The notes beneath the pieces were generated by a model that saw only the letters and a program-made list of their open reading frames with translations, searched no databases and was not told the DNA's origin. From IMG/VR virus record IMGVR_UViG_3300045135_000709, positions 1-42,098 of that record: DNA of 42,098 bases. The stretch is one strand, 5' to 3'. Each line of letters begins with the position of its first letter. Positions within the stretch are counted from its first letter, which is position 1. Source of the stretch: a virus. Position numbers and translations under genes: made by a program. Below, in pieces: positions 7,656 through 42,098 of this stretch.

Positions 7656-8201
7656 TCAAACATACCAGCTAACGAGAACGATACGATGACCTTGCTCTAC
7701 TTGTGATACTCCATGACGTGTGGCATTGTCATAGATTAAACTTTCACCGGGTTTTAATTTTGGAGTACATGGAATTTCTGACTTTCTGTGTACCGAACCT
7801 GTTCTTTGAATATAACTACCTTCAATTGCAGGCAAATCATAGTGTTTGTCCCACACCAAAGTTTCTCCGCCTATCAGATCTTTTTCTTCGATCAATGTGA
7901 TTACTGTCTTAGTTACTCTACTTACGTTGTCGGTGTGTACACGAGTCCAAGAATAAGGAACATATTTTAAGAAGTAATGTGTTTGATTAGTGTATCCATA
8001 TCGATCTTTCATATATCGATCAATCGAAACAGTCGCCGCATTCTCTTTTTTATTTTTTGAATCGACGTTTAATTTTTCGACATAAAATAAAGAATAGTCT
8101 TGCTGTGCATAATTTACAGGAAGATTGTTGTAAAGATCCCAAGCAGACTGCAATTGCTCTGCATTTAGTATTTTTCTTTTATAGAAGTTCTTGTATTGCA
8201 T
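7656..8201 (-). CDS. 2OG-Fe(II) oxygenase (prolyl 4-hydroxylase-like fold)
   Basis: A 181-residue 2-oxoglutarate- and Fe(II)-dependent dioxygenase. The full facial triad is visible: H89-x-D91 in RVHTDNVS and H163 in TRHGVSQVEQGHR, with R173 ten residues later to bind the 2OG carboxylate. The spacing and the tail GHRIVLVSWYV are characteristic of the P4H-like 2OG-FeII_Oxy_3 group. There is no signal peptide, so it acts in the cytoplasm. Its ATG overlaps the gp17 stop (TAATG), placing it in the packaging operon, between genes 17 and 18 that are adjacent in T4. Its substrate is unknown. Related genes are common in marine T4-like phages. Peptidyl side chains of a virion protein are one possibility, nucleic acid or small molecules others. 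Confidence 0.9.
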   Translation of the reverse strand: MQYKNFYKRKILNAEQLQSAWDLYNNLPVNYAQQDYSLFYVEKLNVDSKNKKENAATVSIDRYMKDRYGYTNQTHYFLKYVPYSWTRVHTDNVSRVTKTVITLIEEKDLIGGETLVWDKHYDLPAIEGSYIQRTGSVHRKSEIPCTPKLKPGESLIYDNATRHGVSQVEQGHRIVLVSWYV

Positions 8202-25700: not shown

Positions 25701-27526
25701 CCTGCATCAACTGAGGTGAGATATGTACCAAGAATAACTTTTAATTGTTCGTATGCCTGAACAGTTGCATCCAGTTCGTTTTGACCCAAAAGATCAATAT
25801 AACCATTATTGAATATCGAGAAGTATGCTCGTTGTGCTGTGTATGTTGCACTGTTACCACCATACTTGATATCGTATGTTAATGCGTCAAGAATATAACC
25901 AACGTCTCGTTTACAGGTTGTCTGATCGTATGTTATATTAGGGAATATCGAATTGGCATATGCAACTGTTTGTGTTACAGCAGTTGACTTGATAGCGTTA
26001 ACATCAGAAGCAACACCACTGAACACTAGTGGTGTACTAGGTATGCTAGTAGGATCACTTGCCTCAATAGATGCTATGATAACATCTATCAGACCATTGA
26101 TTCGTGTACGTTCGGTTGCAGTAGTGACGTACTTCGCAATGATCGTCTTAAGTTCTTCGTATGCCGATGCTGTCGCTACAGTCTCGCCAGAACCTAATAA
26201 CTTGGTGTAGATATCGGCTTGACCGTCTAGATTCTGATCTGGACCATAAAGATCAACACCTTTCCAGTACGAACGTGCTACAGTTTCTGTGCCGTAGTCT
26301 ACATCGAACAATATGTCGTGTGATAATGCATCGACGATATAACCTAAATCACGGACACAAGCATCTTGATTGTATTCGAGAGTGTCGTAATTATTCTCGA
26401 TAAAGGTTATGATCTGAGTTTGTATCTTTCTTCGATTGGCTTGTAATGCTTGTTGTGCGGCACGTTTGTCAAACGTGATACTAGCAGAACCAGTGAAGTT
26501 AATTGGATCACCATCATAATCACCGTAATCACTTGACTGATTGATTAGGTCAGTGATCTCATCAATTCTTTCTTGAATGAAAGTTTTGTCGGCATCAAGC
26601 GTTGCGGCATCTTTAAGAAGTCCGCCAAGATATTCAATAGACTGTATCGTGTATGTTTTTTGTTCTTCAGTAACTTTTGAAGACACTGCACGACGATAAG
26701 ATAAACCAGCAGTTGTACTATTATAGTTTGTATTTAATTGCAAGTCAAGACAAATTGCATCAATAATTAATGCCGTGTCACGTGCACACTTTGCTTGATC
26801 AAAGTTGCCTTCGGGTACAGTAAGACTTGTATTAATGTAATCGATTACCGCAGTCTGAATATCGGCTTTGTTTAACTGTATAAGACCCGATGCAGAGTCT
26901 GCGTCTGTCTGCGCCTCGATCGGTGGATCAGTGAAATACAAAGGTGTAGGATCTTCGTCATAGAAGATACCAATGATCTCTGTGAATCCATTTACGATTC
27001 GCTGAGTTGCTGTTGGGTTTTGCTCTACTAATGGAGCAGAAATCATACCGATTCGTTCTTCGTTGATTGAAGCACGAGTCTGGTATTTTTGCTCGTTGGT
27101 TACTTTGGCGGCATTACCACGACGATAAGATAAGCCAGCAGTAACCGCATTATAGTTTGTTTCAAGTACCATGTCATAACGTACCGCATCCATGATGAGA
27201 TGCAAGTCACGCTCACACACGACTTCATTAAACTTGAACGATTGCTTGGCTGTTACAACTGCTACCGCAGAGTCTAGTGTTCGAAAAGAGTTTAAAAGAG
27301 AACGACCGTCATTACCGTACTGACCTGATTTAGAAACATAATAGACGTTATCGACCTGCTCTGAGCCGATCGTTTCAATCGTCACTTCACCTTCACGATT
27401 GCGTTTTAGAAACGCTTTACCGTCATGAGTGTTGATCGCAATTTCGCCAAAGTCTATCTCATTAAGAGTCGGTGCTCTTCCTGGTATAGAACTTCTCGGG
27501 AGTAAAATGCGTTTTCTTGTCGTCAT
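22715..27526 (-). CDS. giant mosaic tail-fibre-like protein (1603 aa): repeat modules, beta-helix, FG-GAP-like propeller
   Basis: A 1603-residue protein. The N terminus has a phage-tail signature (LNEIDFGEIAINTHDGKAFL). Four diverged modules of about 145 residues follow, each with a Cys-x-Arg-Asp core: VCERDLHLIMDAVRYDM (about 102), CARDTALIIDAICLDL (245), CVRDLGYIVDALSHDI (389), CKRDVGYILDALTYDI (537). Residues about 700-900 look like a right-handed beta-helix (STIFLKSGDYIVNNPIKL, ISGIGLRIDG-type rungs), a fold common in fibre tips and depolymerases. Residues about 985-1450 have FG-GAP/integrin-like propeller blades (DDGYLVVTEPSD, GNYIAVTALNQHQ, GDFIAVGASGRRE). No catalytic residues are recognisable. 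A CATAAATA late promoter lies 26 bases upstream. A long receptor-binding or side-fibre role is inferred. Confidence 0.82.
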   Translation of the reverse strand: MTTRKRILLPRSSIPGRAPTLNEIDFGEIAINTHDGKAFLKRNREGEVTIETIGSEQVDNVYYVSKSGQYGNDGRSLLNSFRTLDSAVAVVTAKQSFKFNEVVCERDLHLIMDAVRYDMVLETNYNAVTAGLSYRRGNAAKVTNEQKYQTRASINEERIGMISAPLVEQNPTATQRIVNGFTEIIGIFYDEDPTPLYFTDPPIEAQTDADSASGLIQLNKADIQTAVIDYINTSLTVPEGNFDQAKCARDTALIIDAICLDLQLNTNYNSTTAGLSYRRAVSSKVTEEQKTYTIQSIEYLGGLLKDAATLDADKTFIQERIDEITDLINQSSDYGDYDGDPINFTGSASITFDKRAAQQALQANRRKIQTQIITFIENNYDTLEYNQDACVRDLGYIVDALSHDILFDVDYGTETVARSYWKGVDLYGPDQNLDGQADIYTKLLGSGETVATASAYEELKTIIAKYVTTATERTRINGLIDVIIASIEASDPTSIPSTPLVFSGVASDVNAIKSTAVTQTVAYANSIFPNITYDQTTCKRDVGYILDALTYDIKYGGNSATYTAQRAYFSIFNNGYIDLLGQNELDATVQAYEQLKVILGTYLTSVDAGIQTKVENLLDIIIKAIEQSRDGTYTLGEFFNNNSTRDEIYQYNVPTGLAAGYDELVFPNLITLGYKVIYNELYNAHQTFNLNESQRLTIIRSASAVARNQGTDSTIFLKSGDYIVNNPIKLPPKTSIIGDALRSTTIRPKNVDSDIFWADNAVYIKEITFRDHQDGAACLAFDPRVDSPGAGPFITQSPYVQNCTSLTSSGIGLRIDGSKVSGLRSMVLDAFTQFNAGGIGVYLLNRGYAQLVSLFTVSTTTSVLTETGGQCSLTNSNSSFGKYGLVSRGGSKSLYNGGLHATYDQNEDLIRINTIITQDSADYTLNIGDFKKPNYNDAIRFDSDNYYYTVLDVSDEITQDWASSRNSDETETFAVNTKVNNALFGYSTSMSKDDGYLVVTEPSDAAGKAEVYAKDFIGGLPQWIYQALIQPTTPFGSLSGDEEFGYNAVINGTGNYIAVTALNQHQTDATVTSRNNGAIYTFRRTGESWSQDAFIALPGVTDRDRNFGQSMDMSEDALTIVAGTNNDLTDGGQGAVYVFLRADASSNTWTQQQRLTCPEGSSFPVGLPTVSISEDGQDLIVAWSGPLNKIYYYQRNIDNIFILAQIIIPTSNYQTARDYRLRLNPSSDYFIMGDGNAPRGYFSNALTDPATGVPSYLQRKQYLNNVTFSNSPARITTTDTDVKFDSDFALNSTLTILGSASNDGDYLITGTTSNTITFNGSFASTGADTQVQVFLKNSGTAELFRFEEGQWVTEEVIEAPRELRDRVYYGANVDINERGLLASVGMNPSRDSDSCEVSVLERAAKDWTRVARLEPKTSQDTSIANDRYGSTSHWGTSIGGSGDFIAVGASGRRETEANASTQYGALFTYYSILPETGSYELTISPPLNRQLLRYQNCSFHQRSLITASGHTFEYVGSGTNMFTAIPQNGGIPIKENEVVFDSAEADTPNFGLVYFTATDELGDFRIGEDLRINREEGTITGVTFDRSLFAVLTPFILALEGGS
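22721..22728 (-). promoter_or_regulatory. strong Shine-Dalgarno fixing the GTG start at 22713
   Basis: AAGGAGGA on the minus strand, about 8 bases before the GTG of the 132-residue gene and inside the final codons of the 1603-residue gene. It decides an otherwise doubtful non-ATG start and couples the two genes. Confidence 0.7.
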
Positions 27527-28686: not shown

Positions 28687-29037
28687 CTATGTTACAGATG
28701 GTGTTACTGTTATTTTCCCCTCTAGAACTCTTTCGACCACGTCAGACACACCATCATTGTGTGTTATTTCTACATCATAAACATATCTTTTACGAGGATT
28801 TAACAGGTCGGTTTGAGCAGACGACAATGCAAGCGTAATTTTTCCATCTGTAGCAGGCGAGAGTACAGCAGTCGAGAAAGTGGTTTTATCACTATCAACT
28901 GCATCGTAACTGGGCGCCAATTTTGCGGCTACGGTATAACCATTTAGATCTTTGGCAGAACGATCGGGATTACACAGATGTACTTCAATAAGCGCATCTG
29001 TGCCTTGATCGATTACCAAATCTTCGTAGTGTGCCAT
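28687..29037 (-). CDS. small probable virion protein with a single beta domain (116 aa)
   Basis: A 116-residue protein (MAHYEDLVIDQGTDALIEVH) that reads as one immunoglobulin-like or BppU-N-like beta domain: DQGTDALIEVHLCN, LNGYTVAAKLAPSY, KITLALSSAQTDLL, KRYVYDVEITHNDG, RVLEGKITVTPSVT. The fold guess comes from this strand pattern, which resembles N-terminal baseplate-attachment domains of phage fibres. I cannot name a family with certainty. It is the first gene after two tandem late-promoter octamers (29056-29074) and is followed by the 373-residue fibre gene, fitting a head role for a fibre operon. Confidence 0.7.
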   Translation of the reverse strand: MAHYEDLVIDQGTDALIEVHLCNPDRSAKDLNGYTVAAKLAPSYDAVDSDKTTFSTAVLSPATDGKITLALSSAQTDLLNPRKRYVYDVEITHNDGVSDVVERVLEGKITVTPSVT

Positions 29038-29078: not shown

Positions 29079-29765
29079 TTATGCTTCAATATCTTCGATA
29101 ATCCAATCTTGAATTCCCATAGATATTTCGTCCATAGACAGAGTAAAGGCAATTGTCATTCGAAGACAGTCAGTTGAGGCGGCGTGATAACACCATGTTT
29201 CTTTTGGTTGTGCATATGGTCCGAAATATCCAGCTTTACATTGCCAACCTTTTTTGTCGGGAATGGTCACAATCTCATTTTTATCCCAGTCCCAATACTT
29301 GAACCAACCGTCGCCCGTTTCACTCCATGTGAAAATAAAGTTGTATGCGGGTGCGTTTGCGTTATTATGCCAAGAGATATAGCCACCTGGAGGATAGACA
29401 GCAAACAAAGCGTTTCTCTTCAAGCAAAACGTTGTTGCTAGTTTTTCAATGACACCTTTCAAGTGTTGATTGATCTCACCACTTACAATCTGTGAATCTG
29501 TACCATCAGAAAACTGAATGTTCTGTGCACTAAAAGAATGTGCAACGATGATCTCCGGAAAACCCTCATGTCTTTCTCTCTGATTCATAATGTGTTTAAA
29601 GTAATCTTCACCCACATATTTTTCACGATCTTGTTCGTTATGATTTCGATGACATGTGAGTTTTACTTTTTTATAGTTCTCACTTTCAATAAACCACTCC
29701 GCCTCTTTAAGTATATCAAGAGCATAATCGTTTAATGGTATGTCTTTCATTCCTGTTCTAATCAT
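29079..29765 (-). CDS. 2OG-oxygenase-like (double-stranded beta-helix) protein with atypical HxN motif
   Basis: A 228-residue protein that looks like a jelly-roll oxygenase: the approach PPGGYISWHNN (H133-N134-N135), a central strand YNFIFTWSETGDGWFKYWD, and a C-terminal WCYHAASTDCLRMTIAFTL with H194 and R202. The order His ... His-8-Arg mirrors 2OG-Fe(II) dioxygenases, but the usual HxD/E is HxN here. I recall similar HTN/HNN variants in proteins of marine T4-like phages, so this is probably a family trait rather than decay. Whether it binds iron is uncertain. Substrate is unknown. It overlaps the glycosyltransferase-like gene by 8 bases, and both lie behind the giant repeat gene, suggesting joint action on a common product. 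Confidence 0.65.
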   Translation of the reverse strand: MIRTGMKDIPLNDYALDILKEAEWFIESENYKKVKLTCHRNHNEQDREKYVGEDYFKHIMNQRERHEGFPEIIVAHSFSAQNIQFSDGTDSQIVSGEINQHLKGVIEKLATTFCLKRNALFAVYPPGGYISWHNNANAPAYNFIFTWSETGDGWFKYWDWDKNEIVTIPDKKGWQCKAGYFGPYAQPKETWCYHAASTDCLRMTIAFTLSMDEISMGIQDWIIEDIEA

Positions 29766-30507
29766 AGACTTCGCTCTTTGCCTTTATGTTTGAATAATGT
29801 CGAACTACAACTGGTTTCTTATTGTGAGGATAAAGATAACCGTTGAAAAAATTCCATCGTGCATCGTCTTCAAATATAGCGACTTTCAGATCTTTATATT
29901 TCGGTTCACGGTTTAACAACCACCATAATGAAAATTGATCCCATCGTTTGAATGAAGCGGGATAGTTTTCTAAGTCTTCAGTACCGTCAGCCTTTCTTGG
30001 CCACCATTCGCCATTATATTGTTTAACAGTCAATACATACCAATCTTCCATAAACTCCTTGACAAGCGGATTTGCCATGTTGTACAAGCAAACTCCTCCG
30101 CAGAGTTCAAAGCCGCCTTTTGATCCGTCCTCTTTAGTTGCTCCCGGAAAGTAAACTTCGGCATAACAATAATGTCTTTCGGGTGGCAGACCTGTAAACA
30201 CCAAATCATTATCACCCAACTCATCAAACACCTTTGCTATATCTTCATGTTCAACTTCACAGTCTGCATCAATATAAAATGTTTGATCGTATGGACTCCT
30301 TGCCATACCATCTAGCTTGGCTCTTTTGTGTGCATTGACAAATTCAACTCTATCCGCACACGACTCTTGACCATCTAAAAATCTTTCTTCTGTGAACAAT
30401 GTCACATGTGCATTCGGATCAAAATATTTGATCGACTCAATTAGATTGATTGCAGATAGAAAGAAAAACTTTTTAGTCGACGCTACAACAACATAACCTT
30501 TAGTCAT
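29758..30507 (-). CDS. glycosyltransferase-like protein (GT-A fold, DxD motif)
   Basis: A 249-residue protein with a GT-A nucleotide-sugar transferase layout: an N-terminal strand-helix (TKGYVVVASTKKFFFLSAIN), a second strand HVTLFTEERF, and the metal-binding DxD (D80-A81-D82) in TFYIDADCEVEHEDI. Downstream are acceptor-side elements FELCGGVCLYNMANPLVKEF and WDQFSLWWLLN. It has no signal peptide or membrane helix, so it is cytoplasmic. The ATG at 30507, with GGGA before it and overlapping the upstream stop (ATGACTAA), is preferred to an in-frame TTG at 30519. The gene is sandwiched between a small unknown protein and an oxygenase-like protein. The target could be a fibre protein, phage DNA or a host polymer. 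Confidence 0.75.
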   Translation of the reverse strand: MTKGYVVVASTKKFFFLSAINLIESIKYFDPNAHVTLFTEERFLDGQESCADRVEFVNAHKRAKLDGMARSPYDQTFYIDADCEVEHEDIAKVFDELGDNDLVFTGLPPERHYCYAEVYFPGATKEDGSKGGFELCGGVCLYNMANPLVKEFMEDWYVLTVKQYNGEWWPRKADGTEDLENYPASFKRWDQFSLWWLLNREPKYKDLKVAIFEDDARWNFFNGYLYPHNKKPVVVRHYSNIKAKSEVYD

Positions 30508-30961
30508 CTTTATTCCCAAATAATCCTAATTCTTCACCAATGATTAATGATACTAATGCACTCACTTCTAACTCATTTTGTGCCCTTCGAATTCTAGTCC
30601 GAAGTGTTTTATTATTAGAATTTTTTACTTCAGGAATTTCCATCGCACGAATTTTGGTAGAAAATAGACTTTCCAATTGAGCAGATTGTTTCTTCTGCTC
30701 ATGCTTAACTTCGTCTTCAAGTCTCTTCTTTTGTTTTTCTTCGTGGCGCTTTTGTGTATATCTATCGATAGTATCTAAACCTATAGCATCAATAACTTCG
30801 TTATATTGAGGATTCATTGATCCATCACGAAGTAATTTTGTAACTGTCAACACGTCTTTTTTTGTTTTACCACCTTCAAGATCAGTAATTCGTATACACT
30901 TTAAAACTGATTTATCGGGTACTTCCCAAAACGCATTATCTAAATAACGATAACTTCTCAT
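30500..30961 (-). CDS. unidentified helical protein (153 aa)
   Basis: A 153-residue basic, largely helical protein starting MRSYRYLDNAFWEVPDKSVL. The first 45 residues look folded (CIRITDLEGGKTKKDVLTV). About residues 65-95 form a strongly charged helix likely to be coiled coil (RYTQKRHEEKQKKRLEDEVK), and the C terminus is another helix ending in EELGLFGNKDD. I do not recognise the family. An upstream in-frame TTG at 30979 is rejected because GAGGAG (30967-30972) is ideally placed for the ATG at 30961. The gene begins 11 bases after the stop of the giant repeat gene, so it may be a chaperone or assembly partner for that fibre, by analogy with fibre-assembly proteins next to fibre genes in T4. 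That is inference only. Confidence 0.72.
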   Translation of the reverse strand: MRSYRYLDNAFWEVPDKSVLKCIRITDLEGGKTKKDVLTVTKLLRDGSMNPQYNEVIDAIGLDTIDRYTQKRHEEKQKKRLEDEVKHEQKKQSAQLESLFSTKIRAMEIPEVKNSNNKTLRTRIRRAQNELEVSALVSLIIGEELGLFGNKDD

Positions 30962-30966
30962 GCTCA

Positions 30967-30972
30967 CTCCTC
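30967..30972 (-). promoter_or_regulatory. Shine-Dalgarno fixing the start at 30961
   Basis: GAGGAG on the minus strand with a 5-base spacer to ATG at 30961, overlapping the last bases of the giant gene. It rules for the 153-residue form over a longer TTG-started one. Confidence 0.7.
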
Positions 30973-33900
30973 TAAGCAACTCTTACATATAATGTCCAGG
31001 TCTCTACTGGTAATGGTGGCGGTCTCAGTTCCTCAATAGCGCCGTATGTTCTATCTATAGCAGTTTCTTTCACGTATTGTGTAGCATATGCTTCACCATC
31101 ATAAGTTAATTCTTCGATATTACCTTCGTACTCACCAGTATAAACGACGTACTCTTCTCTTTGATATGATCCTACATATTCGCTTTCGTAACCACCTTCA
31201 TAAAATCCGACATAGTTACCATCGTACTCGGCGCCGTATGTACCATCATATCCTTCTTCGTCGATACCTTCATAAAATCCTGAATAGTCTTCGAGTGCTT
31301 CGCCGACATATTCACCAACATATGGGTATTCAACTTCACCGCCATATTCACCTTCGTAAGTGGTGAAATCAACTCTTTCATAAAACCCAGTATATTCTCT
31401 TTCAATGTCACCTTCATAAAATCCAGTGTAGGTTTCATCGGATATCGAATCATACGTGCTTGAATAAGTTTCATCGGTTTCAGCACCATACTCACCTGTA
31501 TAATTTTCAAAATCAACTCTCTCATAACCACCACCATATGTCTCGGGTCTTTCGCCGATATAATCACCGATATAGTCTCCTACATAATCTGCTTGATAAT
31601 CAGCAGAGTAGGGTTCTTCATCGACTCCTTCATACAGTCCTTCATATGTTATGTATAAGCGTGAGAGATAATCGCCTGTGTATGAGCCAATGTAATCTGC
31701 TCCTACTTCACCAATATATTCACCGCCGTATGTTTTATCAACGGCTCCACCGTAAGTTCCATCAAATGGTTTTGTAATTTGTCCAGTGTATAGTCTTTCG
31801 TATACTACGGTATAAGGCGTTTCTTGACCAATGCCTATGTAGTCTGCATCGAAACTCTTAGACACGTCTGTGACATATATGCCAGTGTATTCAGAAATGT
31901 ATGGAGTATCTACTTGACGAGTGTAAAGACCTGAGTAATCACCTTCATAAACAGTGTTGTATGCACCAATATAATCTGACTCATATACACCGCTATAGTC
32001 GCCAGTGAATGATACAAAACTTTCTCTTGTATATGAACCAGTGTAATCTGTGGTATATGTACCAACATAGTCACCGCTGAATGAGCTAGAGAATGATTCT
32101 TCTTGTCGAGTGAATCGTGTTTCGAAATCTATTCCAGTATATTGACCCGTATAGTCTTCTGAAATGATTACATCTCTTTCTTTGGTATACTCGCCTTCAT
32201 ATTGACCAGTATAATCGCTTTCATAGAATCCTTCATACGCTCTTATGTATTGACCGGTATAGAAACCAGAATAAGTGCCTTCATACTGACCAGAGTATTG
32301 TGTACTAAAAACTTTATCTACTTGTTGGGTATAGTCTCCTATATAAGTTTGACCGTACGACACAAACGTTGTTACAGTGTTCTGATCAAAATAAACTGGA
32401 TCGCCTTCTTGCAATGTGCTTGCGGTTATTGAGGCACTAGCCCAAGCAAATTGTGTGTATGTACCTCGATCATATCTCGTCGCCGACGCTGAAGTCCATG
32501 TAATTCCGTCAAGTACCATGTTAATAAACGCCGATGAAGGCGTACTGCCATCTCCGTCATTAACGTACAGCCACAATTCCTGAGAACTTGGAACAACTAC
32601 TAATTCTACTGTATCACCACCAAATGTTGGCACAGTTGAAGGTATTAAAAATGCCGCATACTGTGAGATATAGTTAGGAGGTGGCGTCGAAACAAAAACT
32701 TCATCAACAGTGTGAGTTGAGTCGGCATTGACGCTAGTATATGACACCACTCTTTGACTATCATATGATGATTCGTATTGACCAACATAATCAGTTTCAT
32801 AAAAACCTTCATAGAATCCAGTGTATTGCTGTTCGATATCTCTGTCTACGCCAGTTTCATAAGTGCCTTCATATTGAGATGAATATGTGCCAGTAAATTG
32901 TTTTGCAACAAGTCTGTCATATTGACCCGTATAATTTCCGGTGAATGTAACGTCTCTTTCACGTGAATATTCACCAGAGAATGAAGCATCATAAAATCCT
33001 AGATAAGGTGTGCCATATGTTCCAGTAAATGTTTTTTCATAAAAACCTGAAAAGGTTTCTTCAACGGTGGCTTCGAAGAATGCATCGTATGTCTCGCTCT
33101 GAATTCCTGTGAAAGTGCCTACATAAGTTTCTTCGGCGTCAGCATCATATGAACCAGTATATGTTTTAGCAACATCAAAAGATACTTGACCAATGTATTC
33201 CGATGAGTATGGCTTTTCAACTTCTTGTGCATAATCACCAGTATATGATGCTGTATAAGTTCCTTCGAATCCACCTATGTAAGTTTCAGTGTACTGTCCA
33301 GTTCGGCTTCGATCGAACTGACCTTCATATGTGCCAATATAATCACCAGAAAAAGTGCCGGTGTATTCTTCATACTGATTTCTTACGAAACCTGTAGTGT
33401 AAGTTCCATCGAAAGTTCGTTCTACAGTAACAAAGTTAATGCCTTCGTATGACTCAGGATCTTGACGAGTGTAATCACCAATGTAATCTGTACCATAAGT
33501 TTCTTGTACAGTTTCAGTGTATGTTTCTTCGTCCAATCGAGTGTAAATTGTCTGATAGTCTTCTTCAAGAACACCAGTGTAGTCGCCGACATAATCACCA
33601 ATGTATCCTGCGCTGTATTGTCCTACATAATCACCTTCATAAGATGCATCATATTGACCAGTATATTCTTCTTCGATCTGACGACCATAAAAGCCAAGAT
33701 AAGGTTCTTCTATTTGTCCAGTGTAGTCGCCGATATATTCTTCTAATTCACCACGGAAGTATGAACCTACATACTCGGCAAAATCGGCACGTTCGTAATT
33801 GCCGATGTACTGTTCTTCATCTAGACCAACATAATCGCCAATATAAGGTTCTTCAACAACAGAGGCGTATCCACCGATGTATTCTTCTAGCTCTGCGCCT

Positions 33901-36900
33901 AGATATGTGCTACCATATGTTTTATCTACAACACCAATATAATTTGCGGCATAGTCTTCAGACTCAGCAGGTAGACGGGTGCGTGTATAAGTTTCACCTT
34001 CGTAATTTGCTATATAAGTCTCAAGTGTTATGGGTCCTAATTCTTCAGTTTGATACGTGCTTTCATAAACGCTTTCGCCGTATGAGCCTTCATATGTGGC
34101 GAGATATTGTGCTTCATACAATGCTTGGTATTCACTCTGATATAAACCAGTGTACGTTTCGCCGTATGATGATGTGTATTCATCGCCTTCATACGTTGCT
34201 ATGTAACTGCCAACATAAAGTGATTCGTAGTTTGGAACGTAGTTGCCAATGTATGTTGCAAGATAAGTTGCGGCATAACCACTTACATATTGTGTAACAT
34301 ACAGACTCTGATAAACGCCTTCATAGTCAGACGAGTAATCTTCTGAAATGATTCTTCCATAATCGCCTGTGTAAGTTTCAAGGTCAACAGTTTCGTAAAT
34401 ACCTTCGTAATTACTTTCATAGAATCCACTGTACAAGCCTGCATAGTCTTCAGAATCAATACGTCCATACTCACCAACGTAGTTCTCTGAATCGTCACGC
34501 TGATATTGACCGGTGTAGTTTTCTGCTTGATCTCTTACATAAAGTCCTGCATAATCTTCGGATATAATTCTTTCGTAAAGACCTGCATAGTTTTCAAAGT
34601 CTACACGGCCGTATACACCTTGATATGTGGTAAAGTCGGTTCTTTCGTATTCGCCCGAATACGTTTCTTCCTGTGCTCGCTCATACTGACCGATATAACC
34701 TTCGAAGTCCACTCGCTCATATGATCCGGTGTAACCTTCAAAGTCTACACGACCATACTCACCAGAGTAAGTCTGATCTTCCAATCTCTCATAGAAACCT
34801 TGATATGTTTCAGTAATATCTCTTTCATAAAGACCAGTGTAAGTCTCGTCAACTTCTCTCTGATACAATCCTTGGTATGAGGTGAAGTCTACACGACCAT
34901 ATGTGCCTGTGTAATTCTGTTCATCATCTCTTTGATACTGACCTGTATAATTCTCAGCAATACTACGTTCATACAATCCAGCATAATTTTCTAGATCTGC
35001 TCTCTCATAGAAGCCTTCGTAAGCAGTGAAATCAACTCGACCATATTCGCCAGTGTATGTTTCGGGAATATCTCGCTGATACTGACCAACATAATTTTCA
35101 TCTTGACTTCTTTCGTAGAATCCAGTATAATCTTCCTGTATGTCCCTCTGATACTGACCAACATATCCTTCAAAGTCTACACGACCATACTCACCAGAAT
35201 AAGTCTCATCCTGTAATCTTTCATAGAAGCCTGCATAGTCTTCCGGAATATTTCTTTGGTATTGGCCAGTATAACTCTGCTCTTGGTCACGCTCATATAA
35301 ACCAGAATAGTTTGTGAAGTCGACTCGGCTATAAACACCTTGATAAGTTTCAATATCATCACGCTGGTACTGACCAGTGTAGTTTTCAGCGATGTTGCGT
35401 TCGTATTGACCAGTATAGTTTTCTAGATCTGCTCTCTCATATTGACCGACATATCCTTCAAAGTCTACACGACCATATTCGCCAGTATAGGTTTCATCAA
35501 CGGTTCTCTGATAGAAACCTTGATAATCTTCAGGAATGTTACGCTGATATTGACCAGTATAGTTTTCTAGATCTTCACGTTGGTAAAGACCTTCATATGT
35601 GGTAAAGTCAATTCGAGTATACTGACCAGAATAATCTTCTGCGATGTCACGTTCGTAAAGACCAGCATAGTTCTCTGAATCGGTTCGAGTGTATTGACCA
35701 GTGTAGTCTTCGGGAACAACACGACCATATTCACCTGTATATGTTTCAGAAACGATTCTTTCGTAGAAGCCACCGTATGTTTGATCTACATCTCTCTGAT
35801 ACTGACCAGTATATTCTTCAACCTGATCACGAACATACAAGCCAGCATAAGTTTCATCATCAACTCGCTGATAGGATCCGACATAACTTTGATCTTCGGA
35901 TCTTGTGTAAAGACCGTCGTATGATTCGCCCGAAGTTCTTACATAAAGACCAGCATAGTTTTCACTATCAACACGACCGTAGGTGCCGATATAGTTTTCA
36001 TCGATGATTCTTTCATACTGACCAGAGTAGTTTTGGTCATCAACTCTTTGGTACTGACCAGTGTACGACTGCTCTTGATCTCTTGCATAATCACCAACAT
36101 AAGTCTCGTCAATCGCTCTCTGATACTGACCACTATAATTTGTGAAATCAATTCGAGTATAAAGACCATCGTAATTTTCGTTGTCGACTCTCTCATACAA
36201 ACCAGAATAGTTTGTAAAGTCCACACGACCATATGTACCAGTATAAGTTTGGTTTTCTAGTCTGTCGTAAGAGCCAGTGTAAGTTTCTGCTATGTCACGT
36301 TGATACTGACCGGTGTAGGTTTGATCAACTGTACGAGTGTAATTACCAACATAAGTTGTAAAATCAACACGACCGTAAGTACCTTCATAAGTCTGATTTA
36401 CAACACGATCATAAGAACCTTGATACGTTTCGGTGATAGCACGTTCGTACTGACCAGTGTATGATTGATCTTGTACTCTTTCGTATTGTCCAGCGTATGA
36501 AGTGAAGTCTACACGACCGTAGGTGCCTGTGTACAATTCACCATCTGTTCTTTGATACTGACCAGTGTATGATTGATCTTGCAAACGATCATACTGACCG
36601 GTGTATTGTTCTTCCTGAGTTCGAGTGTAAGATCCGATATAACTTTGTTCTTCGGTTCTTTCATAGAAACCAGCGTACAGTTCTTGAGCACTTCTCTCAT
36701 ACTGACCAGTATATGATTGATCTTGTGATCTCTCATAAGAACCTTGATACGTTTCTTCGTTCTGTCCAGTGTAAATGCCAGTGTAGCTTTCAATAACCTG
36801 ACCAGTGTATTGACCTGAATACTGCTCTTGAATTTGACCTGTATACTGACCCGAATATTGCTCTTGAACCTGACCAGTGTATTGACCCGAATAAGTTTCA

Positions 36901-39900
36901 TCCTGACTTCTTTCGTATGTGCCAGCATATGTTTGATCAACGCTTCTTTGATACTGGCTGATATAAGTCTCGTTAATCGCTCGCTCATACTGTCCAGTAT
37001 AAGTCTCGGATTGATCACGACCATATGTACCAGTGTATAGTGCAGTGTCGTTTCGCTCGTATTGACCGATATATGTTACAGGATCAAGACGTTCATATTG
37101 ACCGGTGTATGATTCTCCAACAGTTCTTTCGTACAAACTCGTGTACGTTTGATCTTGAGTACGAACATAATCACCAGAATAGGTTTCACTCTGGCTTCTT
37201 TCGTAAAAGCCCAAATACGTCTCTTGAACTTGACCCGTGTATTGACCAGTGTATTGCTCTAGAACAATACCACCGTAGCTTCCTACGTAAGACTGTTGAA
37301 CTTGTCCGGTATATTGACCAGTGTATGTCTCGTTGATAGCACCTTCATACTGACCGGTATATTGTTCACCCTGTTCTCTTTCATATTGACCAGTATAAGT
37401 TTCGTTGACTTGACCAGTGTAACCACCAATGTAAGATTGGTCTACACTTCTCTCATAGAAACCCGAATAAATTTCATCGATTTGGCCAGTGTATTGACCC
37501 GAATAACTTTCTTGAGGAACACCGGTGTATTGTCCTGTGTATTGTTCAAGATCTTGTCGAGTGTACAATCCAGAGTAAGTTTCTAGATCTGTTCGAGTGT
37601 ATCCACCAGTATAACTTTGACTCTGACCTCTTTCATAAGATCCCTGATAAGTTTCAGTTACTTGGCGTGTATAACCACCAGTGTAAGTTTGATCAATAGA
37701 GCCTGTATACTGACCCGTATATTGTTCTTGTACAGCACCTTCATACTGACCGGTGTATTGTTCAAGAATGTTTCCTGTATATTGACCAGTGTATGCGCCG
37801 TCATAAAATTCGTTTATTTGACCCGCATATTGACCTACATATTGTTCTTGTACTTGACCTGTATATTGACCAGTGTATGTCTCTTGAGGAACACCAGTGT
37901 ATTGTCCTGTATACGAACCTTCATAAGTTTCGTTGACTTGGCCAGTGTATTGACCAGTGTAAGTTTCTCCGACAACACCGGTATATTGTCCCGTATACGA
38001 CTCTTGAGGAACGCCCGTGTATTGACCAATGTATCCACCAACGTATTGTTCTACAAGAACACCTTCATACTGACCAGAATAACTTTCCTCGATGACACCA
38101 GTGTATTGACCAGTGTACGTTTCAGCAACTTGTCCGGTGTACTGACCAGTATATTGACCAGTATATGATCCGTCGTAAGTTGATGTATACTGTTGCAGAT
38201 AAGTTTGGTCTATCGCAGAATCTTGTTGACGAGTATAACTTCCAAGATACGTTCCTTCATATGTCTCAGAGATTGTCTGAGTTTGGGTTCGAGTATACAG
38301 AGCAGAGAAAGAACCGTCATAAAACTCATCTAGTGTTGAATCTTGTTGGCGTGTATAACCGCCTTGATAGATTCCTTCATATGTCTCAGAGAGTGTCTGA
38401 GTTTGGGTTCGAACATAACTACCAATATATGATCCTGTATAGAACTCTGTTAAAGTAGAATCTTGTTGACGTGTATAACCACCAGTGTAGGACGAACTGT
38501 ACGTTTCATTTAATGAAGAATCTTGCTGTCGTTCATATGATCCAGTATATTGTCCTTCATACGTTTCATTTAACGTCGAATCTTGTTGACGTTCATATGA
38601 TCCAGTATATTGACCTTCATATGTCTCGTTGAGAGTTGAATCTTCTTGGCGCTCATAACTACCAGTGTAGAATCCAGTATAAGTTTGATTTAATGTGGAA
38701 TCCTGTAGTCGTGTATATGAGCCAGTGTAAGAACCTTCATATGTTTCATTTAACGTCGAATCTTGTTGACGTGTATAACCACCCTCATACGTTCCTGCAT
38801 ATTGTTCCGAAATAGCCGCATCACGTTGACGAGTATAGCCACCTTCGTAAGTTCCCGCATATTGTTCTGAAATTGCCGCATCTCTTTGGCGTGTATAAGT
38901 GCCAGCATATGTACCTACATATGAACCAAGATAATCTTCAGAAACGCTACCACCGTAGAAACCACTATACGAACCTTCATAGTTTGCAAAATCGACACGA
39001 ACATATGATCCCGTATAGGGCTGATCTTCTGAAGCGGTTCTTTGTTTAACATAAGAGCCTTCGTATTGCTGTGCTACTTGACCCGTATACTGCCCAGTAT
39101 AGCCACCCGCATATGTTCCTTCATATGTTGCGGCGGTATTGTCAAAAAGAACAGTTGCACCTTGTGTTAAAGTGCCGGAGTCTACTGAAGGACTAGTCCA
39201 AGCAAATTGTGTGTATGTACCTCGATCATATCTCGTCGCCGACGCTGAAGTCCAGGTGATACCATCAACAACAACGTTTATAAAGGCACTTGAAAGTGTA
39301 TCACCGTTACCATCATAAACGTACATCCATAACTCCGAAAAACTTGGAACAGCAGTAAAATCTACTGTGTCGCCACCAAAGGTTGGTACAGATGATGGCG
39401 AAATACCCGCCGCATATTGACCAATATAATTCGGAGGTGGTGTAGAAAAGGATACTGGTCCTACAGTATGAGTCGAGTTAGCACTGCCGCCAGTATAAGA
39501 TCCAACGTATTGTTGACTTATCGTCGAATCTTGTTGACGTTCATAAAAACCTTCGTAAAAGCCAGTGTATGTCGAAGAAAACTGACCGGTGTAATCCCCG
39601 ATGTAAGTTTCTTGTACAATGCCAGTATAAGAACCGGTATATGTTCCGGCATATGTCTGAGTTTGTGTTCTAAAATAACCACCAGTGTATATGCCCGCAT
39701 ACTGACCACTGTATTGCTGAATGACATCGCCCGTATATTGACCAATGTAACCACCCGCATAAGTTCCAACATACTGTTGTAAAACGACACCAGTGTATTG
39801 ACCAATGTAGCCACCCGCATAAGTTCCAACGTATTGTTCTGGAACAACACCAGTGTATTGACCAGTATACTGTCCAGTATAACTACCCGCATACGTTTCT

Positions 39901-42098
39901 TGAACATCACCAATGTATTGGCCAGTGTATTGGCCAGTGTAACTACCTTCGTAAGTTTCTTGAGCTTGACCAGTGTACTGACCCGTGTACTGACCAGTGT
40001 ATGAACCTGTGTATGATTCTTGAACTTGTCCAGTGTACTGACCAGTATATTGTCCAGTGTAACCACCGGTGTATGATTCTTGAACTTGTCCAGTGTACTG
40101 ACCCGTGTATTGCCCAGTATAACTTGACGTATAAGTTTCTTGAACTTGTCCCGTGTATTGACCAGTATAGAAACCAGAATACTGGCCTTCGTAAAGTTCT
40201 TGTACAGCACCCGTGTACTGACCAATGTACCCGCCGATGTAAGATCCTGCATAGTTTTCTAAAATAACACCAGTATATTGACCAGTATATTGTCCAGTGT
40301 ATTGTCCGATATAAGTTTCAAGCACTGAGCCAGTGTATTGACCAGTATAGCCACCGGTATAACTTCCCGCATATCCTTCTTGAATTACACCAGTATATTG
40401 TCCGATGTATTGTCCTGTGTAAGACTGGTTGTATGTTGTGCCTGAATATGAACCAGTATAAGTTTCATTTAATGAAGAATCTTGTTGACGTTCATATAAA
40501 CCGGTATAACTTTGATCAACCGAACGAGTGTAGCCACCCGTGTAAGTTTGAGTTTGTTGACGAACGTAACTACCTGCATAAGTTCCTTCATAAGTCTCAT
40601 TTACTGTTCGAGTATATCCACCAGTATACGTTTCGTTTAGTGTGCGGGTGTATCCACCTGTGTATGATTGATCAACTGTTCTTTCGTATTGGCCAGTATA
40701 TTGACCGATGTACGATTGATCGACTGTTCGAGTGTAGCCGCCCGTATATGACTGATCAACAGTTCTTTCATAAGAACCTTGATAAGTTTCTTCTACAGTT
40801 CTACCGTATTGGCCAGTGTAGCCACCAATGTAAGTTTGATCTACTGATCGTACATATGTGCCTTCATACGTTTCATTCTGTAATCGAACATACGAACCCT
40901 GATAGGTTTGATTTTCTGAACGAGTGTATTGGCCTGTGTAACTCTCACCTACAACGCCTTCATAAACGCCTGAGTATTGCTCTTGAACTTGACCGGTGTA
41001 AACACCTGTGTATGTTTCTTGAGGAACACCAGTATATTGACCAATGTATGATTCGGTATTGCTACCCTCGTATGTGCCTTCATACGTTTGATTTTGTGAT
41101 CTTTCATAACCACCGGTATATGTTTGAGTCTCTTGACGCTCATATTGACCAGTATAGGCTTCGTTAATCTGACCTGTGTATTGACCTGTATAGGTTTCTT
41201 GATCAGTTCTAGTGTACTGACCAGTGTATGACTCGTTGATTTGACCAACATATCCGCCAGTATAAGTCTGATCCTGTAAACGAACATATTGACCTGTGTA
41301 AGACTGATCAACAGATCTTTCATAAGAACCTGTGTATGACTCTCCTTCGGTTCGAACGTAACTTCCTTCGTAAGTTTGATTCTGTGATCTCTCGTATGAG
41401 CCGATGTAACTCTGTTCGATTTGCCCAGTGTAAAGACCGGAGTAACCTTCAAGAACAATACCCGTGTATTGACCGGTGTAAGGTTGAGCAACTTGACCTG
41501 TATAAGAGCCTGTGTAAGTTTCGTTGACCTGTCCGCTGTAAACCGAGATATAGTTTTCAGAAATTTGACCAATATAACTGCCAATGTAATTTTCGTCAAC
41601 ACCGCCTGAATAAACGCCAGTGTAACTTTCATTGATCTGTGATACATACTGTCCTGTGTATGGCTGATCTATTTGACCTGTATATTGACCAGTGTATTGC
41701 TCAATGATTTGACCAGTGTATTGACCAGTATATTGTTCTGTCTGCTGGCGCTCATAACTACCAGTGTACGTCTGAGTTTGCTGTCGCTCATAAGTACCTT
41801 GATATGTTTGTGTTTCTTGTCTTTCATAGAAACCTTCATAAGTTTCTGCTTGATCACGACCATAATCACCTGCATAATTCTCGGTAACCTGACCAGTATA
41901 CTGTCCTGTATACGCTTCATTGATCTGACCAACATAAGAACCTTGGTAGACTTCTTCGTCTTGGCCGGTATAGAATCCTAAATAAGTTTCTTGAACATTA
42001 CCGGTATAACTTCCACTGTATGTTTCATTAATTTGTCCTTGATACTGACCAGTATAAGTCTGATCGACCTGACCTGTGTATTGACCAAGATAACTTTC
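30972..42098 (-). CDS. giant Tyr/Gly-repeat protein, 5'-truncated by the window (at least 3,708 aa)
   Basis: The frame ending with the stop at 30972-30974 stays open to the right edge. I read the part above 40325 codon by codon and found no stop and no ATG, GTG or TTG, so the true start lies outside. The GTG at 40325 is an internal valine (YTGSVLETY). Almost the whole product is built of Tyr-x-Gly-x-Tyr-x-(Gly/Arg) units of 12 residues, with 20-residue variants. The N-terminal part seen is Thr/Gln-rich and mostly neutral (ETYTGQYTGQVQ), the middle is charged (ENYAGLYERDIA) and the C-terminal quarter is acidic and irregular (EEYIGDYTGQIEEPY). Two globular inserts of about 120 residues interrupt it. 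No cysteine was seen. The last residues (RPPPLPVETWTLYVRVA) are non-repeat. It heads a run of small modification-type genes. Family unknown to me; a fibrous virion or secreted adhesin is inferred. Confidence 0.93.
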   Translation of the reverse strand, partial: ESYLGQYTGQVDQTYTGQYQGQINETYSGSYTGNVQETYLGFYTGQDEEVYQGSYVGQINEAYTGQYTGQVTENYAGDYGRDQAETYEGFYERQETQTYQGTYERQQTQTYTGSYERQQTEQYTGQYTGQIIEQYTGQYTGQIDQPYTGQYVSQINESYTGVYSGGVDENYIGSYIGQISENYISVYSGQVNETYTGSYTGQVAQPYTGQYTGIVLEGYSGLYTGQIEQSYIGSYERSQNQTYEGSYVRTEGESYTGSYERSVDQSYTGQYVRLQDQTYTGGYVGQINESYTGQYTRTDQETYTGQYTGQINEAYTGQYERQETQTYTGGYERSQNQTYEGTYEGSNTESYIGQYTGVPQETYTGVYTGQVQEQYSGVYEGVVGESYTGQYTRSENQTYQGSYVRLQNETYEGTYVRSVDQTYIGGYTGQYGRTVEETYQGSYERTVDQSYTGGYTRTVDQSYIGQYTGQYERTVDQSYTGGYTRTLNETYTGGYTRTVNETYEGTYAGSYVRQQTQTYTGGYTRSVDQSYTGLYERQQDSSLNETYTGSYSGTTYNQSYTGQYIGQYTGVIQEGYAGSYTGGYTGQYTGSVLETYIGQYTGQYTGQYTGVILENYAGSYIGGYIGQYTGAVQELYEGQYSGFYTGQYTGQVQETYTSSYTGQYTGQYTGQVQESYTGGYTGQYTGQYTGQVQESYTGSYTGQYTGQYTGQAQETYEGSYTGQYTGQYIGDVQETYAGSYTGQYTGQYTGVVPEQYVGTYAGGYIGQYTGVVLQQYVGTYAGGYIGQYTGDVIQQYSGQYAGIYTGGYFRTQTQTYAGTYTGSYTGIVQETYIGDYTGQFSSTYTGFYEGFYERQQDSTISQQYVGSYTGGSANSTHTVGPVSFSTPPPNYIGQYAAGISPSSVPTFGGDTVDFTAVPSFSELWMYVYDGNGDTLSSAFINVVVDGITWTSASATRYDRGTYTQFAWTSPSVDSGTLTQGATVLFDNTAATYEGTYAGGYTGQYTGQVAQQYEGSYVKQRTASEDQPYTGSYVRVDFANYEGSYSGFYGGSVSEDYLGSYVGTYAGTYTRQRDAAISEQYAGTYEGGYTRQRDAAISEQYAGTYEGGYTRQQDSTLNETYEGSYTGSYTRLQDSTLNQTYTGFYTGSYERQEDSTLNETYEGQYTGSYERQQDSTLNETYEGQYTGSYERQQDSSLNETYSSSYTGGYTRQQDSTLTEFYTGSYIGSYVRTQTQTLSETYEGIYQGGYTRQQDSTLDEFYDGSFSALYTRTQTQTISETYEGTYLGSYTRQQDSAIDQTYLQQYTSTYDGSYTGQYTGQYTGQVAETYTGQYTGVIEESYSGQYEGVLVEQYVGGYIGQYTGVPQESYTGQYTGVVGETYTGQYTGQVNETYEGSYTGQYTGVPQETYTGQYTGQVQEQYVGQYAGQINEFYDGAYTGQYTGNILEQYTGQYEGAVQEQYTGQYTGSIDQTYTGGYTRQVTETYQGSYERGQSQSYTGGYTRTDLETYSGLYTRQDLEQYTGQYTGVPQESYSGQYTGQIDEIYSGFYERSVDQSYIGGYTGQVNETYTGQYEREQGEQYTGQYEGAINETYTGQYTGQVQQSYVGSYGGIVLEQYTGQYTGQVQETYLGFYERSQSETYSGDYVRTQDQTYTSLYERTVGESYTGQYERLDPVTYIGQYERNDTALYTGTYGRDQSETYTGQYERAINETYISQYQRSVDQTYAGTYERSQDETYSGQYTGQVQEQYSGQYTGQIQEQYSGQYTGQVIESYTGIYTGQNEETYQGSYERSQDQSYTGQYERSAQELYAGFYERTEEQSYIGSYTRTQEEQYTGQYDRLQDQSYTGQYQRTDGELYTGTYGRVDFTSYAGQYERVQDQSYTGQYERAITETYQGSYDRVVNQTYEGTYGRVDFTTYVGNYTRTVDQTYTGQYQRDIAETYTGSYDRLENQTYTGTYGRVDFTNYSGLYERVDNENYDGLYTRIDFTNYSGQYQRAIDETYVGDYARDQEQSYTGQYQRVDDQNYSGQYERIIDENYIGTYGRVDSENYAGLYVRTSGESYDGLYTRSEDQSYVGSYQRVDDETYAGLYVRDQVEEYTGQYQRDVDQTYGGFYERIVSETYTGEYGRVVPEDYTGQYTRTDSENYAGLYERDIAEDYSGQYTRIDFTTYEGLYQREDLENYTGQYQRNIPEDYQGFYQRTVDETYTGEYGRVDFEGYVGQYERADLENYTGQYERNIAENYTGQYQRDDIETYQGVYSRVDFTNYSGLYERDQEQSYTGQYQRNIPEDYAGFYERLQDETYSGEYGRVDFEGYVGQYQRDIQEDYTGFYERSQDENYVGQYQRDIPETYTGEYGRVDFTAYEGFYERADLENYAGLYERSIAENYTGQYQRDDEQNYTGTYGRVDFTSYQGLYQREVDETYTGLYERDITETYQGFYERLEDQTYSGEYGRVDFEGYTGSYERVDFEGYIGQYERAQEETYSGEYERTDFTTYQGVYGRVDFENYAGLYERIISEDYAGLYVRDQAENYTGQYQRDDSENYVGEYGRIDSEDYAGLYSGFYESNYEGIYETVDLETYTGDYGRIISEDYSSDYEGVYQSLYVTQYVSGYAATYLATYIGNYVPNYESLYVGSYIATYEGDEYTSSYGETYTGLYQSEYQALYEAQYLATYEGSYGESVYESTYQTEELGPITLETYIANYEGETYTRTRLPAESEDYAANYIGVVDKTYGSTYLGAELEEYIGGYASVVEEPYIGDYVGLDEEQYIGNYERADFAEYVGSYFRGELEEYIGDYTGQIEEPYLGFYGRQIEEEYTGQYDASYEGDYVGQYSAGYIGDYVGDYTGVLEEDYQTIYTRLDEETYTETVQETYGTDYIGDYTRQDPESYEGINFVTVERTFDGTYTTGFVRNQYEEYTGTFSGDYIGTYEGQFDRSRTGQYTETYIGGFEGTYTASYTGDYAQEVEKPYSSEYIGQVSFDVAKTYTGSYDADAEETYVGTFTGIQSETYDAFFEATVEETFSGFYEKTFTGTYGTPYLGFYDASFSGEYSRERDVTFTGNYTGQYDRLVAKQFTGTYSSQYEGTYETGVDRDIEQQYTGFYEGFYETDYVGQYESSYDSQRVVSYTSVNADSTHTVDEVFVSTPPPNYISQYAAFLIPSTVPTFGGDTVELVVVPSSQELWLYVNDGDGSTPSSAFINMVLDGITWTSASATRYDRGTYTQFAWASASITASTLQEGDPVYFDQNTVTTFVSYGQTYIGDYTQQVDKVFSTQYSGQYEGTYSGFYTGQYIRAYEGFYESDYTGQYEGEYTKERDVIISEDYTGQYTGIDFETRFTRQEESFSSSFSGDYVGTYTTDYTGSYTRESFVSFTGDYSGVYESDYIGAYNTVYEGDYSGLYTRQVDTPYISEYTGIYVTDVSKSFDADYIGIGQETPYTVVYERLYTGQITKPFDGTYGGAVDKTYGGEYIGEVGADYIGSYTGDYLSRLYITYEGLYEGVDEEPYSADYQADYVGDYIGDYIGERPETYGGGYERVDFENYTGEYGAETDETYSSTYDSISDETYTGFYEGDIEREYTGFYERVDFTTYEGEYGGEVEYPYVGEYVGEALEDYSGFYEGIDEEGYDGTYGAEYDGNYVGFYEGGYESEYVGSYQREEYVVYTGEYEGNIEELTYDGEAYATQYVKETAIDRTYGAIEELRPPPLPVETWTLYVRVA
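32365..32740 (-). repeat. embedded globular domain, copy 2 (C-terminal side), within the giant gene
   Basis: About 120 residues without the Tyr/Gly repeat: STHTVDEVFVSTPPPNYISQ, VPTFGGDTVELVVVPSSQEL, then DGITWTSASATRYDRGTYTQ. It matches copy 1 at 39131-39491 closely, including a 57-bp perfect DNA match (32442-32498). Trp-rich and beta-like. Family unknown. Confidence 0.85.
34450..35615 (-). repeat. 144-bp super-repeat marked by GRVDF
   Basis: Every fourth 12-residue unit carries Gly-Arg-Val-Asp-Phe or a close variant. The DNA marker begins at 34597, 34741, 34885, 35029, 35173, 35317, 35461 and 35605, exactly 144 bp apart, with a diverged copy in register at 34453. Another 144-bp run occurs with markers at 36227, 36371 and 36515. 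Confidence 0.9.
34450..37700 (-). repeat. 36-bp tandem coding repeat (12-aa YxGxYxR units)
   Basis: About 90 tandem 36-bp units encode 12-residue repeats such as ENYTGQYERNIA and QTYEGTYGRVDF. The register is strict at least from 34453 to 36515, where marker positions differ by exact multiples of 36 with no indel. Codons vary freely (Tyr TAT/TAC, Gly GGT/GGC/GGA) while Tyr, Gly and Arg positions are held. Confidence 0.92.
38221..38940 (-). repeat. 60-bp tandem coding repeat (20-aa units with RQQDSTLNET)
   Basis: Twelve in-register 60-bp units encode 20-residue repeats of the type TYEGQYTGSYERQQDSTLNE. In the part at 38221-38460 units alternate between RQQDST and RTQTQT forms, giving a 120-bp dimer with long near-identical stretches. 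Confidence 0.92.
39131..39491 (-). repeat. embedded globular domain, copy 1 (N-terminal side), within the giant gene
   Basis: About 120 residues: STHTVGPVSFSTPPPNYIGQ, VPTFGGDTVDFTAVPSFSEL, then DGITWTSASATRYDRGTYTQ. It shares a 57-bp perfect DNA match (39198-39254) with copy 2. It separates the QQDST array from the YTGQ array. Confidence 0.85.
39721..40440 (-). repeat. 60-bp tandem coding repeat (20-aa YTGQ-rich units)
   Basis: About twelve in-register 60-bp units encode 20-residue repeats such as QVQESYTGSYTGQYTGQYTG. Two adjacent units at 39741-39840 are nearly identical, pointing to recent duplication. The 20-residue unit is the 12-residue unit plus two YTGQ tetrapeptides. Confidence 0.9.

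Follow-up and report, generated by a model that had tools for sequence, protein, structure and literature searches.

The window, by which we mean the whole 42,098-base virus contig analyzed here, carries on its minus strand a single open frame of 3,708 codons (30972–42098) that is cut at the contig edge, the gene start lying outside the record. The other window genes form a T4-like virion module: portal, tube, sheath, terminase, neck, tail fibers, and fiber-assembly genes. An earlier note, made from the letters alone, had described a single giant Tyr-Gly frame, open at the edge, in a T4-like phage; the length of the frame and its T4-like neighbors bear this out. The principal features are:

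30972–42098, minus strand: 5′-truncated giant Tyr-Gly repeat protein, 3,708 residues in the window, an open frame with period 4/12
34308–37835, minus strand: run of 98 successive 12-residue units that contains no indel (residues 1422–2597)
30500–30961, minus strand: conserved YLDNAFWE protein, a candidate assembly factor whose gene comes next downstream in almost every locus
29758–30519, minus strand: hypothetical protein in the place of CDS0203 of phage C48C1, by position alone
29079–29765, minus strand: hypothetical protein in the place of C48C1 CDS0204, by position alone
28687–29037, minus strand: L-shaped tail fiber assembly family protein (phrog_1084/phrog_3304), in the same position in C48C1
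22715–27526, minus strand: tail fiber protein of 1,603 aa (phrog_17885, E 2.7e-82)

Elsewhere in the window, a 2OG-Fe(II) oxygenase-like gene (7656–8201; phrog_61, E 4e-8) lies within the structural module, between the sheath and large terminase genes; its product may modify virion proteins. A collagen-like tail fiber gene with 18-base (Gly-X-Y) tandem repeats occupies 2427–3524 and adjoins a gene for a 655-aa protein (411–2378) that has no PHROG match.

The giant frame is built on a 4-residue step, [Tyr/Phe]-x-[Gly/Arg]-x, in agreement with the alternating Tyr/Gly pattern reported previously. Steps are grouped mostly into 12-mers and also into 20-mers, the latter at about residues 560–840 and ∼1040–1320. 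Tyr-Tyr spacing is a multiple of 4 in 95.2% of cases (200 shuffles: mean 18.7%, maximum 22.8%), and Tyr recurs at lag 12 in 80%. Among the 3,708 residues are 603 Tyr, 492 Gly, 2 His, and 2 Met. Tyr codons are split 61/39 between TAT and TAC, identical to the other window genes, and overall codon usage is close to theirs; such ordinary usage points to an old, protein-selected array rather than to recent slippage. PDB sequence matches of the array were set aside as apparently low complexity, judged by names and matched regions alone.

Relatives of the Array Protein

The frame belongs to a large unnamed family, comprising phage C48C1 and over 100 IMG/VR loci. The earlier note knew of no described phage family of this kind, and this is borne out: The window array had no match in Pfam or PHROG, and a literature search returned no description of such a family and named neither C48C1 nor its accession. 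The protein is not unique, however, having counterparts in one annotated phage and many IMG/VR contigs.

C48C1 (labeled Kyanoviridae; 156 kb) is the only phage with a relative among 50,697 phage records. Between C48C1 and the window the terminases are 74% identical; the next-best matches reach about 47%. The relative, CDS0201 (OQ984149, WJE88074; 3,347 aa), is annotated “hypothetical protein.” It is alike in its N-terminal modules, its Tyr/Gly/Arg array, its ETYTLYVRVA end, and the same downstream gene order, and differs in its Arg-rich units, at least six insert domains, and an array identity of about 26%. No psbA is annotated in C48C1, so a cyanobacterial host is not supported, and an N-terminal domain scan of genome contigs found no relative and hence no host clue. 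The C48C1 record also holds a phage tRNA-Tyr gene (OQ984149 55335–55418, L148) and, elsewhere, tRNAs for Thr, Asn, Asp, Ser, Ala, and Leu; several residues served by these tRNAs are abundant in its array, and the tRNAs may aid translation of the giant gene.

Two sets of apparent matches in named phages were rejected. Vibrio phage matches of the C48C1 protein cover a nonrepeat insert, not the array; the region concerned (L018:22489–23127, a C48C1 insert domain region) matches virion structural proteins of ∼253-kb Vibrio phages, and the shared module is possibly carbohydrate-binding. A “structural protein” of Synechococcus phage S-RIM2 shares a 4-residue x-T-G-N step through its VTGN/LTGN repeats; it has neither the N-terminal modules nor the TLYVR end, and we dismissed this as chance-type similarity of VTGN low complexity.

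The IMG/VR search with the N-terminal domain of relatives yielded 55 loci, and that with the YLDNAFWE gene 202, of which 80 were kept. Nearly all loci carry a Tyr/Gly-array ORF that ends in a form of ETYTLYVR and directly precedes the YLDNAFWE gene (at most 250 nt upstream in 49 of 55 checked loci). In family members the array follows an N-terminal domain of three modules and is itself followed by the C-terminal strand “ETYTLYVR”; the window has the 4-residue aromatic lattice, the end in the form VETWTLYVRVA, and the YLDNAFWE gene directly downstream. The proteins range in length from 368 to over 3,700 residues, and two tandem paralogues are frequent. Tandem array genes (L027, L028, L029, L032, L077, L099–L101, L105, L112, L126, L131, L139) differ in N-terminal domains and arm lengths, possibly giving two fibers of different reach. 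In L075 (2–6277) FG-GAP (beta-propeller-like) repeats take the place of most of the array (Pfam E 1.8e-36). At L095:2676–6200 and L114:6410–9923 the array ORF is split by a stop or frameshift that is either an assembly error or real, near relatives being intact.

On the evidence of substitutions, the array is under purifying selection in relatives, far from the dN/dS near 1 that the earlier note had associated with relaxed selection. Omega, estimated in pairs drawn entirely from relatives of the window, was about 0.10 for the array in two moderately diverged pairs (L009/L011 and L139/L131), as low as for the N-terminal domain; in closer pairs it was 0.20–0.34, an estimate that is coarse because substitutions are few.

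Base Domain and C-Terminal Strand

The N-terminal domain is absent from the window contig and present in complete relatives. An alignment of 45 such domains divides into three modules, with homology between modules 2 and 3 (probability 94.8%, E 5e-8); module 1 aligns with module 3 at 87–89%. In an AlphaFold2 model of the short member L036 (437 aa), the N-terminal modules are mostly at pLDDT 90–98, each with a predicted beta-beta-alpha-beta-beta fold, and the array is below 50. The C-terminal strand (residues 413–435), which lies 100+ residues past the modules, returns to pLDDT 93–96. Modules 1 and 2 each close with a hairpin of their last two strands, and it is exactly between the corresponding strands of module 3 that the array falls.

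Because the C-terminal strand is folded confidently although it stands beyond the array, the array appears to be inserted in the last module. The most natural reading of the strand is as the closing strand of module 3, its presumptive pairing partner there being assigned from module homology. The strand is conserved family-wide although up to thousands of residues away, and comparison with module 2 (hhalign, P 0.01) is no more than suggestive of homology. Neither a PHROG search nor Foldseek against PDB and BFVD (E ≤ 0.001; a three-module query with a disordered loop) found a match for the N-terminal domain. If both array ends sit on one module, the array must return.

Mirror Relationships along the Array

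Nonrepeat inserts mark where the array could turn. In 42 members, whose arrays span 419 to 3,064 residues, the distance of the main insert from the array midpoint was at most 0.1 in 74%, where 26% would be expected; 20,000 random placements yielded no value as extreme, and the tendency holds in 6 of 9 clusters. No Pfam match above cut-off was obtained for insert domains except FG-GAP in L075, PHROG tail matches were weak, and a scan for relatives of the window insert domain found none.

Close relatives differ by indels placed at mirror positions. L027 and L028 are 97–98% identical: Between the copies of one paralogue there are two indels of 60 residues, the first 268 residues after the array start and the second 264 before its end; between those of the other, two of 32 residues lie 194 from the start and 196 from the end. 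Similar mirror pairs occur among L099/L100/L101 and in L130/L135, L123/L135, L098/L123, and L105/L131, and between L023 and L133 the two halves gain 332+20 and 112+240 residues, 352 each. Altogether there are 17 mirror-matched indel pairs (2,000 random placements: mean 1.7, maximum 6), a count that depends on an indel size cut (8 aa) and a tolerance (40) fixed after a first look and in which many relatives are mutually related, so that the events are not independent.

Residue content is complementary between the two halves, or arms. At one mirror offset, correlations between arms averaged −0.38 for Gly, −0.33 for Tyr/Phe, and −0.28 for Arg/Lys over the 41 members long enough to test, unselected for signal; at other offsets they are near 0. 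When all axes were scanned de novo, the best one agreed with this register (start+end+9 to 13) for about 24 of the 41. Pooled in-register pairs from these 24, set against same-phase controls, gave 0.10× for Arg-Arg, 0.35× for Gly-Gly, and 1.73× for Gly-Arg; the 24 having been picked by the scan, these ratios are partly circular, which the 41-member correlation is not. In the 60-residue blocks of L027 the pairing rule is visible by eye, with arm 1 YTRARSSAYAGN set against arm 2 YEGAFARAYNGA read backwards. Reversed residue order on the same strand cannot arise from DNA palindromes or unit duplication and so points to selection at the protein level.

The signal is uneven across the family. About 15 of the 41 members gave no mirror signal in the axis scan, including the window's nearest clade (L009, L060). 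In some of them (L112, L113, L099) several inserts shift the axis, which would account for the miss; in L009 and L060 the reason would be that they contain little Arg. The support from these two is a midpoint insert and a symmetric acid profile: Acidic residues thin out from either end of the array toward its middle (in L060, 24% at one end, 4% at the center, and 23% at the other end), so that the charge gradient is mirror-symmetric. At the family register, Arg is seldom opposite Gly in the C48C1-like clade. Mirror composition compared at a coarse scale gave a weak signal (acid 0.06 versus −0.17, P = 0.017; other classes mixed); it was the fine-scale correlation over 41 members that brought the signal out.

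The window has a mirror of its own. The axis scan returned a single axis at i+j = 1856 (0-based), that is residue ∼929, the center of the insert at residues 872–990, with a score of −4.12 (best of 40 block shuffles, −2.06). One step off, at register 1857, 24 of 25 arm 1 Arg stand opposite an arm 2 Gly (controls: mean 45%, maximum 88%), with a P value that holds for the chosen axis and does not account for the choice itself. About this axis 20-mer stretches face 20-mer stretches, and 12-mer stretches face 12-mer stretches. The resulting division of the frame is:

39486–42098, minus strand: proposed arm 1, tip-proximal part (residues 1–871), predicted to pair with ∼991–1857 about the axis i+j = 1856/1857
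39129–39485, minus strand: proposed tip domain, nonrepetitive, no database match (residues 872–990; mirror axis at residue ∼929)
36525–39128, minus strand: proposed arm 2, with its partner inside the window (residues 991–1858)
31050–36524, minus strand: proposed arm 2, basal part (residues 1859–3683); partner extrapolated to ∼1,840 arm 1 residues beyond the contig end
32349–32729, minus strand: second insert domain (residues 3124–3250), 67% identical to the tip domain
30972–31049, minus strand: C-terminal strand “...VETWTLYVRVA*”, conserved family-wide and proposed to complete module 3

With the axis at residue ∼929, the window would hold all of arm 2, the tip domain, and 871 tip-proximal arm 1 residues. 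Absent from it, we predict, are about 1,840 arm 1 residues, or some 130 fewer should the second insert lack a counterpart, together with an N-terminal domain of ∼405 aa, the size seen in L009 and L060; the predicted full length is about 5,800–5,950 residues. If extended beta, such a fiber would reach the extreme length of the order of 0.6–0.9 μm (several hundred nanometers).

A Proposed Out-and-Back Fiber and Its Alternatives

We propose, at a probability of about 0.7, that the protein is a giant out-and-back fiber with paired antiparallel arms, most likely a tail fiber for host recognition. The family, the order of base, array, and C-terminal strand, the midpoint insert, the mirror indels, the cross-arm complementarity, and the window's axis come from computation; beta structure, a trimeric state, virion location, receptor binding, and a chaperone role for the YLDNAFWE protein are inferred. 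The three-module N-terminal domain would form the base, with the Tyr/Gly array inserted in the last hairpin of module 3. The array would leave the base as arm 1, pass through a nonrepetitive tip domain at its midpoint, and come back as arm 2; module 3 would then be completed by the conserved C-terminal strand (ETYTLYVR-A). The arms would run antiparallel and in register over their full length, with Tyr columns opposite Tyr columns and Arg of one arm opposite Gly (or another non-Arg residue) of the other. Since the arms would pair, fiber length could change only by equal gain or loss in both at the same height. The analogy of T4 gp37 suggests a homotrimer, with six antiparallel strands in all and putative receptor binding by the tip domain; folding may be helped by the adjacent YLDNAFWE protein, a candidate chaperone.

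The closest parallel is the C-terminal receptor-binding part of T4 gp37, the needle by which that phage recognizes its host. Its collar D10 is formed by residues 811–881 and 1010–1026, and its stem and tip D11 (882–1009) is an insertion (PMC6957217); the tip has been described as a six-stranded antiparallel needle (PMC7291167), and a Gly-Phe contact, G921-F970, joins strands of different subunits (PMC6957217). The likeness lies in a long stem and mid-insertion tip inside a domain completed by a short C-terminal piece, and in outgoing and returning strands, with G921 and F970 at mirror positions by our own arithmetic. A stem-and-tip insertion of this type is seen in relatives, through the module alignment, the L036 AlphaFold2 model, and the mirror evidence; the window lacks the base domain. 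The insertion spans 128 residues in gp37, about 100 to more than 3,600 in the family, and ∼5,500 as predicted for the window, so we propose the same working principle, by analogy, at up to about 40 times the length. There are also differences. The gp37 needle coordinates iron through histidines, for which the window protein has no counterpart (2 His in 3,708 residues), a Tyr/Gly/Arg lattice standing instead. For the gp37 collar fold, common to gp12, gp10, and gp11, a Foldseek search of PDB and BFVD with the three-module base domain and its disordered loop returned no match at E ≤ 0.001. Searches for a fiber-family sequence match gave none in PHROG or Pfam for the array and none in PHROG for the N-terminal domain. 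The working principle would be that of gp37, but the lack of the histidines, and of any sequence or fold link in these searches, keeps us from classing the family with it.

The architecture could be right and its place different, in a head fiber, a whisker, or another nonreceptor fiber. Gene order can do no more than suggest a location, which leaves some room for this; the giant gene nonetheless stands between baseplate/tail fiber genes and fiber-assembly genes, in a region resembling what is termed the host recognition cluster in pelagimyophages (PMC7029224), and we consider another location unlikely.

The same mirror statistics would be expected of an antiparallel homodimer in which the arrays of two chains lie head-to-tail, with the tip on the two-fold axis and a base domain at each end, and the C-terminal strand could then be domain-swapped. 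Such an assembly would place the attachment domain at both fiber ends, and the known precedent, gp37, goes out and back within a trimer (PMC6957217); we regard it as quite unlikely.

The earlier note had suggested a beta fiber or solenoid. A beta fiber remains probable; a one-way beta solenoid of 12-residue coils, lengthened by unit duplication, now appears very unlikely, two antiparallel arms and a tip domain being a better explanation of the array. The unbroken 12-residue register over 98 units does suit a solenoid, and AlphaFold2 draws 14 units as a continuous all-strand model (pLDDT ∼80) whose weak Foldseek matches are mostly beta solenoids. Those matches reach a best E of 1.5e-3, none at E ≤ 0.001, with TM at most 0.33, and since AlphaFold2 draws confident but unrealistic solenoids for repeats (PMC11795689), we give the model no weight. 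A one-way coil also leaves the midpoint inserts, mirror indels, and cross-arm complementarity unexplained, as it does 12-mers and 20-mers side by side.

A disordered Tyr/Gly/Arg low-complexity protein of the FUS-like sticker-spacer kind, condensing or gluing virions or host material, would fit the composition and the L036 array's pLDDT below 50, but is hardly credible, for a disordered chain needs no 4-residue lattice (95%), no 98 indel-free units, no mirror register, and no equal-arm indels.

The out-and-back fiber may, we think with somewhat better than even confidence, represent a new fiber class: thousand-residue antiparallel arms held in exact register, with a pairing rule written in the sequence (Tyr opposite Tyr; Arg opposite Gly and almost never opposite Arg) and RNA-stem-like evolution in which paired mirror indels tune the length of a host-recognition fiber by tens to hundreds of nanometers. 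The family is widespread in environmental T4-like phages, and the one annotated copy found is a “hypothetical protein.” If the reading is true, the window protein would be among the largest proposed phage fiber proteins, and its compensating indels and residue complementarity would let sequence alone reveal partners thousands of residues apart. Phages would have a simple way to tune fiber length, and the design of long beta fibers would gain testable pairing rules.
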